DNA from: Roseomonas sp.
Lineage (GTDB): Bacteria; Pseudomonadota; Alphaproteobacteria; Acetobacterales; Acetobacteraceae
DNA: 64,000 nt
NCBI GenBank assembly: GCA_020249435.1
Contig: JADCFQ010000007.1
Coordinates: forward strand, 124,001-188,000
Direction of reading: 5' to 3'
Numbering within the stretch: position 1 is the stretch's first letter; each line of letters begins with the position of its first letter. The position numbers were made by a program, and so were the translations under genes. This document shows positions 15,909 through 17,895 of this stretch, piece after piece. Below the pieces are notes generated by a model that was not told where the DNA came from, ran no database searches, and saw nothing but the letters and a program-made list of their open reading frames with translations.

Positions 15909-17774
15909 TCAGGCTTCCGACAATTCCTCAGGCTTCACCTGGCGCTCGGCCACCTTGGCCAATTCCAGGATGAAATCCACGACCTTTTCCTCAAAAATCG
16001 GGGCGCGGAGGTTTTCCATCGCTTCCGGATTCTTGCGGAAGAATTCGATCACCTGCTGTTCCTGGCCACGGTAGCGCGCGGCTTCCTGGCGAAGCGCGCG
16101 GCTCAGCTCATCCGGTGTCACCTGGATGTTGTTGCTGCGGCCAATTTCGGACAGCAGCAGGCCAAGCCGGATACGCCGCTGGGCGATACCGCGATATTCA
16201 TCGCGCAGCGTCGCCTCATCCTTGCCCGCATCATCCGAATCGAGGCGCCCTGCCTTCAAATCGGCTTCCACGCGCTGCCAGATTTGGCTGAACTCACCCT
16301 CCACCATGCCTTCCGGCACGGGGAAGCTCGCCTGATCGGCAAGCTTGTCCAAAAGGGCGCGCTTCAGGCGCATGCGCGCCATGCCATCATATTCGCGCTG
16401 CAAGCCTTCCTTCACCTGGGCTTGCAGGCCAGCCAGATCATTCTGCCCGACCGTCTTCGCCAATTCATCATCAATGGCGCGCGGCACGCGCTGCTGCAGC
16501 TTCTTCGCCGTAATGGAGAAGACCGCGCGCTTGCCCGCCAATTCGGCCGAGCCGTAATCCAGCGGAAACACCACCTGGATATCGCGGCTGTCGCCCACGG
16601 AAAGCCCTTCCATCTGCTCGGTAAAGCCTGGAATGAAGCCGGGGCCGCCGACTTCAATCGGCATATCGGTGGCAGAGCCACCCGCGAAGGGGGCAAGGGC
16701 GGGTTCTTCAGTACCAGCAATCAACCGCGCCGGGCCGATCCGCAGCGTGAATTCCACAGCCGCACCCGCTGCCATTCCATGCAAATAGATGAACGGCCGG
16801 CAAGCGCCGATTTCCGCCTGATTGGGGAAGGTGAAAGCAAGCGTGCTGCGCCCGGCCGTCACATCAAAGCCTTCGCGCTGCAAATCCAGGAAATCAACGC
16901 TGTCCTGGCCGAGGCTATAAAGGTTGAAGCCAAGCTTGCCCTGCGTGCCTTCCGGCAGGCTGCCGCCAGCCAGCTTGGTGCTGACCATCAGGCTTTGCGT
17001 GGCACCCGGTGCCGCGGCGATACCCTTCGGGCCTTCCAGGAACACCTGCACCCAGCCGGCTTCGCTCGCCGTGCCGCTGACGCGCAAATCGAAATAGGGC
17101 AGCGCCTCTTCCGTGCCGATGGCAGCGATTTCGGACTTCAGGCCACCCGAAAGCCCAATCTCCCACCCGCGCGGCGCCTGGCCGGGGATGCCGGGCACGG
17201 CGCCAAGCGCCGGGCCATTGGTCAGCAGGTCAGGCACTACGGAGCCAGCGAAATCGCAGACCATCACCTCGCCCTTGGTGGCGGGGCGGGCTTCGGCCAC
17301 ATCCGTCAATTCGCCATTGCGGGTCGCGAGCGTTTCCAGGATTTTCTGCACTTCCTCATCGGAAGGCTCGGCGCGTAGGCGTTCCAACTCGATGCCGGAA
17401 AATTCGGGCATCGGGACATCCGGCAGCACTTCCAATTCCATGCGGAATTCAAGATCAGCGCCTTCGGCGAAATTCGTCACTTCGATCTTGGGCTGCAAGG
17501 CGGGCTTCAGGCCGCGATCCGCGACCAGCCTGCGCTGCGCGTCATTCACGGATTCTTCGAGCACTTCGCCCATCACTGCGGTGCCATAGCGCTGCCGCAC
17601 AATGGAAAGCGGCACCTTGCCCGGGCGGAAGCCCGGCAGCGAAACCGTCTTCGCGATTTCGGCAAGCCGCTTTTCGCGGCTGGTGGCGATATCGCCGGCC
17701 GGAAGCGTCACGGAATAGGCGCGCTTCAAACCTTCATGCGCGAGCTCATTAACCTGCATCGGAGGATCGTCCAT
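15909..17774 (-). CDS. tig: Trigger factor with an extra ~180-residue domain inside the FKBP domain
   Basis: A ribosome-bound chaperone and prolyl isomerase. The frame is 621 residues against about 430-450 for the family. The ribosome-binding domain holds the GFRPGKVP signature at residues 48-55. The FKBP-type domain starts near 166 (TKGEVMVCDFAGSV), is interrupted from about 181 to 361, and resumes with PFAGGSATDMPIEVGG and GFIPGFTEQMEGL. The C-terminal chaperone domain runs from about 432 (RAIDDELAKTVG) to the end. Removing the insert leaves a normal ~440-residue protein. Numbering is from the ATG at 17774. The ATG at 17759 (MQVNELAHEG) better matches the family start. An intrinsic terminator follows and tRNA-Leu lies upstream. 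Confidence 0.9.
   Translation of the reverse strand: MDDPPMQVNELAHEGLKRAYSVTLPAGDIATSREKRLAEIAKTVSLPGFRPGKVPLSIVRQRYGTAVMGEVLEESVNDAQRRLVADRGLKPALQPKIEVTNFAEGADLEFRMELEVLPDVPMPEFSGIELERLRAEPSDEEVQKILETLATRNGELTDVAEARPATKGEVMVCDFAGSVVPDLLTNGPALGAVPGIPGQAPRGWEIGLSGGLKSEIAAIGTEEALPYFDLRVSGTASEAGWVQVFLEGPKGIAAAPGATQSLMVSTKLAGGSLPEGTQGKLGFNLYSLGQDSVDFLDLQREGFDVTAGRSTLAFTFPNQAEIGACRPFIYLHGMAAGAAVEFTLRIGPARLIAGTEEPALAPFAGGSATDMPIEVGGPGFIPGFTEQMEGLSVGDSRDIQVVFPLDYGSAELAGKRAVFSITAKKLQQRVPRAIDDELAKTVGQNDLAGLQAQVKEGLQREYDGMARMRLKRALLDKLADQASFPVPEGMVEGEFSQIWQRVEADLKAGRLDSDDAGKDEATLRDEYRGIAQRRIRLGLLLSEIGRSNNIQVTPDELSRALRQEAARYRGQEQQVIEFFRKNPEAMENLRAPIFEEKVVDFILELAKVAERQVKPEELSEA
16692..17234 (-). other. 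Inserted domain within trigger factor, phage-tail-like beta-sandwich candidate
   Basis: This segment codes for residues ~181-361 of the trigger factor. It opens with PDLLTNGPALGAVPGIPGQ then PRGW. It has alternating hydrophobic strands (YFDLRVSGTASEAGWVQVF), and closes with RPFIYLHGMAAGAAVEFTLR followed by IGPARL. The opening (L-TNG---GAVPG-PG--P-GW) and the closing FTLRIG pattern resemble domains I know from phage tail fibre or spike proteins of alphaproteobacteria. That resemblance is from memory, not a search. The frame is open throughout and base composition matches its neighbours, so it looks like a settled domain rather than a recent disruption. No repeats were seen at its borders. Confidence 0.6.
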
Positions 17775-17810: not shown

Positions 17811-17895
17811 TGGTGCGGGCGAAGGGACTCGAACCCCCAAGGCTTGCGCCACCGGAACCTAAATCCGGCGTGTCTACCAATTCCACCACGCCCGC
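17811..17895 (-). tRNA. tRNA-Leu (anticodon TAG)
   Basis: The minus strand folds as a class II tRNA. The acceptor arms GCGGGCG/CGCCCGC, an anticodon stem CCGGA/TCCGG around the loop TTTAGGT (anticodon TAG), a long variable arm with TGGCGCAAGCC, the T loop GTTCGAGTC and an encoded CCA end (17811-17813) are all present. It lies between the trigger factor and the dehydrogenase E1 gene on the same strand. Confidence 0.95.

Follow-up and report, generated by a model that had tools for sequence, protein, structure and literature searches.

A predicted jelly-roll domain of phage tail type inside the FKBP domain of trigger factor from Roseomonas and its relatives

Introduction

To our knowledge, trigger factor occurs in nearly all bacteria and usually with one architecture, and because of this one would not expect its isomerase domain to harbour a fixed module from phage tails. 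A 64,000-nucleotide stretch of Roseomonas sp. contig JADCFQ010000007.1 (positions 124,001 to 188,000, hereafter the window) presents such a case, as its tig gene (15909..17774, minus strand, as are all its parts given below) encodes a trigger factor whose FKBP domain is interrupted by about 180 residues. What the additional segment is, from where it was acquired and what it might do for the chaperone are addressed here. That the insert is homologous to phage tail and baseplate modules and sits within an otherwise ordinary trigger factor is held with high confidence, while the complete proposal of a single capture, patchy retention and an accessory role in client docking is an evenly balanced call. 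The case shows a viral tail-protein fold moving into the protein-folding core of the cell, and it offers a natural experiment on the purpose of the isomerase head, as insert-bearing genes can be compared directly with insert-free ones from close relatives.

A trigger factor with an interrupted FKBP domain

By every test made, the encoded protein corresponds to a trigger factor and not to a new kind of protein. The Pfam domains Trigger_N, FKBP_C and Trigger_C all score above cut-off and in the expected order, and the trigger factor model TIGR00115 yields 374.6 bits against a curated cut-off of 180.2. The ribosome-binding Trigger_N domain covers residues 6-149 (17328..17759; PF05697, E 9.8e-38) and contains the GFRPGK form of the ribosome-docking signature GFRxGK (GFRPGKVP, residues 48-55), and the Trigger_C chaperone domain covers residues 447-604 (15963..16436; PF05698, E 1.8e-37). 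Between them, the opening FKBP segment (residues 163-180; 17235..17288) includes a strand at 170-179 in the predicted model and ends at the insertion point, as judged from model secondary structure and alignment. The insert then occupies residues 181-361 (16692..17234), followed by the second FKBP part at residues 362-429 (16488..16691; PF00254 at 363-422, E 2.9e-8). The first-pass annotation had placed about 180 extra residues here, and two alignments agree with this placement: the FKBP_C match begins only at residue 363, which is profile position 25 of 94, and the alignment to E. coli trigger factor (Ec; residue numbers after 1w26) breaks into query residues 6-179 and 362-618 with only Ec residues 173-175 skipped. 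In Ec numbering the insertion site falls between residues 172 and 176, and the insert is in frame and free of stops. FTLRIG is located near its end and PFAGGSATDMPIEVGG comes directly after it, in line with the earlier statement that the FKBP sequence resumes there, and the flap region FPLDYGSAELAGKRAVF is unbroken in the alignment.

The same alignment with a residue count places equivalents of Ec F177, I195, F198, F217, Y221 and F233, which we take to form the isomerase pocket, at F363, I381, F384, F403, Y407 and F419, so that all six are present and, from its sequence, the insert-bearing chaperone still looks intact. Base composition at third codon positions (GC3) is 0.740 in the insert and 0.730 and 0.745 in the flanks, with an overall GC of 0.650 compared to 0.614 and 0.613. 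The length of 621 residues given previously applies to the first ATG; translation probably starts five codons later at Met6 (MQV; 17759), the residue from which both the Pfam match and the alignment to E. coli trigger factor extend, giving 616 residues. The description of the chaperone as essential was too strong, as trigger factor is dispensable in E. coli.

Fold and relatives of the inserted domain

Residues 176-364 are predicted with a predicted local distance difference test (pLDDT) value of 93.4 as a beta-sandwich with the jelly-roll fold of carbohydrate-binding module (CBM) family 4, as found upon comparison of the predicted structure. The full-length model has a predicted template modelling score of 0.51, so no conclusion here draws on how the insert is positioned against the other domains. 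Apart from trigger factor itself, the nearest folds are CBM4, CBM16 and CBM22 modules and modules of phage tailspikes. Identity to CBM4-2 of the Rhodothermus marinus xylanase and to the CBM-like modules of tailspikes K2-2 and CBA120 TSP4 is 13-16%, with no sequence-family match, and the CBM4/9 profile (PF02018) gave no match to the insert at a Pfam E-value of 1 or below.

The suspicion of a foreign domain of phage tail type was borne out by profiles matching in both directions, by the PHROGs names of its non-chaperone carriers and by the fold. As a single sequence, the insert found nothing in Pfam (E <= 1), PHROGs, NCBIfam or PDB, and tblastn returned phage Cd at E 0.03 only, weak plasmid matches (best E 0.09) and no confirmed relative among viral contigs. 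Homology became visible only through a profile of 28 inserts, which reached phage tail proteins: it aligns over the whole domain with the tail protein gp49 of Azospirillum phage Cd (independent E-value, iE, 3e-22), and recognizes phrog_5939 tail proteins and gp46-type baseplate proteins (phrog_180) with iE down to 1e-32. Among 397 sampled family genomes, this profile matched 77 at E <= 0.01, many in non-chaperone genes, and at least 39 carry the domain in an open reading frame (ORF) without a trigger factor match. When ten domain carriers were scanned against PHROGs, nine matched tail or baseplate families, the tenth being a trigger factor paralog. Conversely, a profile built from eight phage-type domains detected the window insert as its sole match in the source genome (E 1.4e-23) and 279 relatives in viral contigs. 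Of these, 79 loci were retained, and 89 ORFs on the viral loci that were fetched match the insert profile at iE < 1e-5. Taken together, sequence profiles and the predicted model identify the insert as a jelly-roll domain homologous to phage tail and baseplate modules, and the idea of an unrelated insert was rejected. In phage proteins the domain is one module, sometimes in tandem, with five copies in viral protein L155 and four in L164, and in L115 (6284-7501), a gp46-type baseplate protein, it is located at the C-terminus.

Distribution among Acetobacteraceae

The insert is confirmed as real and lineage-wide. In 33 of the 35 genomes of the genus, source included, the trigger factor match runs into or through the insert, and the remaining two gave one weak match (E 4e-58) and no match. 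At the family level, 373 of the 397 genomes contain a trigger factor match and the main gene spans the insert in 28, all insert-spanning rows falling within the matches listed. These 28 comprise 13 of 13 genomes of the window's genus, three each of g29, g64, g17 and g4, and one each of g6, g16 and g37; a second insert-bearing copy occurs in three of them among the matches listed. The distribution is hence patchy in the family and near-general in the window's genus. From 32 loci in genome contigs, the insert was present in 22 and absent in six, with four fragments ending short of it, and named carriers include Neoroseomonas eburnea, N. soli, N. oryzicola, N. nitratireducens, Roseomonas rubea and Roseomonas sp. 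HF4. Among 385 genomes of the class, the insert profile matches only the source genome and one other, the latter in a 402-residue frame (E <= 1e-6).

Residues lost and kept in the chaperone-borne copies

Comparison with phage-type copies suggests that the domain has been repurposed and not merely carried in the main chaperone copies, because its core residues are kept while those marking phage copies are mostly lost. Among 75 phage-type rows, R185 is found in 66, W260 in 64, P349 in 67, Q350 in 68 and E352 in 73, and the window insert has T, Q, A, R and I at these positions, none of them phage-typical. In the 45 main chaperone rows, Q350 never occurs, R185 is present in three and P349 in seven, and tryptophan is outside the five commonest letters at position 260; in 12 paralog rows the corresponding counts are none for Q350, two for R185 and three for W260. 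Unlike the phage proteins, chaperone copies have thus mostly lost R185, W260, Q350 and their neighbours. By contrast, G271 and R345 are retained in 45/45 main rows, G220 in 44/45, and P201 and G234 in 42/45.

Equivalents of Ec F198, F217, Y221 and F233 are kept in 44/44 insert-bearing and 33/33 insert-free main genes, F177 in 43/44 insert-bearing ones, and GFRPGK in 44/44 and 32/33, respectively. The mean ratio of nonsynonymous to synonymous substitution rates (omega) over 66 pairs of 12 window-like genes is 0.122 in the N-terminal part, 0.100 in the insert and 0.052 in the C-terminal part. Outside this set, insert omega is 0.22-0.32 with flanks at 0.05-0.19 in five pairs taken from the genus's other branch, and values of 0.17, 0.27, 0.09, 0.97 and 0.755 were obtained for the g29, g64, paralog, g17 and g4 pairs. 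The insert is therefore under constraint in the lineage of the window, whereas elsewhere it changes fast.

Probable origin, with loss or exchange

According to the proposed sequence of events, the domain was probably captured once, early in one Acetobacteraceae clade, into the loop between the first FKBP strands beside the isomerase pocket, after which some lineages would have retained it under purifying selection while others lost it or exchanged it by recombination. A tree of 93 domains (viral ones thinned to 19, chaperone-borne ones to 36 of 59) has one branch that separates 36 chaperone-borne from 57 phage-type copies (support 95/92, recovered in 96% of 200 bootstrap trees). A second, rapidly computed tree of 134 rows, for which the viral domains were reduced to 37 of 78 and the remaining non-chaperone ones to 37 of 41, gives the same split of 59 versus 75 with support of 99 in the Shimodaira-Hasegawa-like approximate likelihood ratio test. 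Near-identical or fragmentary genes were dropped before tree construction, and two window-genus fragments that an E-value rule labelled as paralogs in the 134-row tree were excluded from the paralog group for GC3 and residue counts. In a backbone tree of trigger factors with the insert removed, all 27 insert-bearing genes fall into one clade of 57 rows (98/96), of which 30 are insert-free; this tree was rooted on six outgroup rows with paralogs left out, as long paralog branches had spoiled the root of an earlier tree.

One capture near the clade base with subsequent repeated loss or exchange fits both trees. Loop lengths, whose measured ends depend on profile-match ends, are 6-20 residues in the 30 insert-free genes inside the clade (11-20 in 19, 8 in five, 6-7 in six), as compared to 6-7 in 15/15 family genes outside it and 6-10 in the six outgroup rows. 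Longer loops in insert-free relatives may represent scars of loss or an earlier permissive state. Exchange is hinted at by the GRLV-type flanks of the insert-bearing genes of G372 and G421, which are unlike those of their congeners. Sliding DNA identity over 16 pairs from four genera revealed no clear import tract.

Several observations weigh against this scenario or against a stable function of the domain. The presence of the insert requires nine changes on the trigger factor trees, eight of them forced by well-supported branches, and support for a single capture comes from one branch (95/92), in an analysis whose bootstrap had not settled. Loss or exchange is nevertheless preferred, and separate captures per genus were rejected, because the domain trees unite the chaperone copies despite these nine changes. 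Transfer from chaperone to phage is conceivable, though phages hold the greater diversity of the domain and carry it more widely. The inserts of L227 and L228 are only 37% identical with an omega of 0.97 in chaperones that are otherwise 96-97% identical, and their synonymous divergence (dS) of 0.65 exceeds the 0.12 and 0.25 of the flanks, which points to an allele swap or very fast change; those of L065 and L233 are 59% identical with an omega of 0.755. Such fast change resembles what diversifying selection, a replaced allele or relaxed constraint would produce and not a conserved docking site, and insert-free congeners live without the domain.

Trigger factor paralogs carrying the domain

Diverged trigger-factor-like Acetobacteraceae genes with the phage-type domain were observed at L068, L069, L070, L073, L075, L097 (the same as L128), L132, L133, L238, L241, L252 and L123, the last being outside the motif count. 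Among eleven insert-bearing paralogs, Y221 is kept in none, leucine replaces F198 in eight and the ribosome signature is absent in six. Five second copies in the window's genus, found by full-length search, all carry the domain despite a decayed isomerase pocket. Thus, trigger factor paralogs without ribosome and isomerase motifs can still bear the phage module. Paralogs outside the window's genus were mostly found via the insert profile, and this sample is biased toward domain carriers.

Proposed role and alternative explanations

The 16 listed trigger factor sequences with solved structures are all of 444 residues or fewer, and the window protein differs from them, and from Tig in general, by its foreign domain, although all three domains, the isomerase pocket and the ribosome signature are shared. 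The first-pass annotation knew of no trigger factor with such a domain, and none is described at the level of titles and abstract openings in the trigger factor papers that the searches listed; the main text of a survey of trigger factor duplicates (PMC11559001) does not contain the words Roseomonas, Acetobacteraceae or insertion. As far as these searches reach, the architecture is new. A partial precedent is found in SlyD and SlpA, folding enzymes of the FKBP type in which a second domain of about 65 residues is inserted in the flap (IF), close to the active site. The SlyD domain holds clients for the FKBP pocket, with such domains grafted into FKBP12 increasing folding activity without harm to the isomerase (PMC11013033). 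Unlike the SlyD-type IF domain, the window insert is not in the flap and uses another loop, about 180 residues and a CBM4-like fold.

The insert departs from the predicted FKBP fold immediately ahead of F363, which corresponds to Ec F177 and is presumably at the isomerase pocket. The first-pass annotation had suggested a surface for binding carbohydrates or clients; such a role is possible, and of the two client binding is favoured. Since the insert adjoins the pocket and the inserted domain of SlyD holds clients for its own, client docking appears the likeliest role by analogy: the domain would provide an accessory surface on the isomerase head that keeps nascent or misfolded chains next to the active site, although its loop and its fold both differ from those in SlyD. 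Computation shows that the insert is present, patchily distributed, under selection, homologous to the phage modules and of the predicted fold, and that pocket and ribosome signature are intact; docking is added by this analogy with SlyD.

A loop that accepts a compact domain harmlessly, with no selected function and with persistence because clean removal is rare, would also account for the repeated absence of the insert among close relatives, for the omega values of 0.97 and 0.755 that two of ten further pairs gave, and for the 19 longer loops in insert-free clade genes, such as imprecise loss leaves. This explanation is considered improbable, as mean insert omega in the window's lineage is about that of the ribosome-binding part, the insert is near-general in the genus, and all five second copies keep the domain though their pockets have decayed.

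Distinctly less probable is a working carbohydrate-binding module that tethers the chaperone to glycans or glycosylated clients. The nearest predicted folds and a sub-threshold CBM_4_9 match of the phage-type carrier L115 (E 0.021) speak for it, but trigger factor is cytosolic, no signal peptide was seen by eye, the insert has no Pfam match, and with Q350, R185 and W260 mostly gone any ligand site has probably changed. At a similarly low level of belief, the captured tail module might be a changeable specificity domain, gained once, swapped and diversified between lineages and carried into off-ribosome paralogs. These cells would then have a family of folding factors in which a domain derived from phages determines the range of clients, phage tail proteins possibly among them.

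Still more doubtful is a direct interaction with phages, as a decoy or poison subunit in tail assembly or as a handle delivering phage tail proteins to the chaperone. Phages of this family commonly carry the domain, as the at least 39 of 397 family genomes with it in a non-chaperone ORF indicate, while among the 385 class genomes only the source and one other match; its patchiness, the rapidly changing inserts of the g4 and g17 pairs and the paralogs without ribosome signature resemble arms-race genes. Against this, neither the window protein nor four paralogs match any PADLOC anti-phage model at E <= 0.01, no phage or defence genes were recognised by eye among the listed paralog neighbours, where no family search was made, and selection in the window lineage is purifying. 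An assembly chimera, intein or misread frame has virtually no likelihood left, being contradicted by the same insert in many assemblies and cultured strains and by an open frame with flank-like GC3, omega near 0.1 and a CBM4-like fold.

Genomic surroundings

The genus-wide and family-wide trigger factor searches gave no second trigger factor match in the source genome, where one further FKBP_C place lies within a 117-residue frame. A tRNA-Leu gene (17811-17895) is located directly upstream of tig on the same strand.
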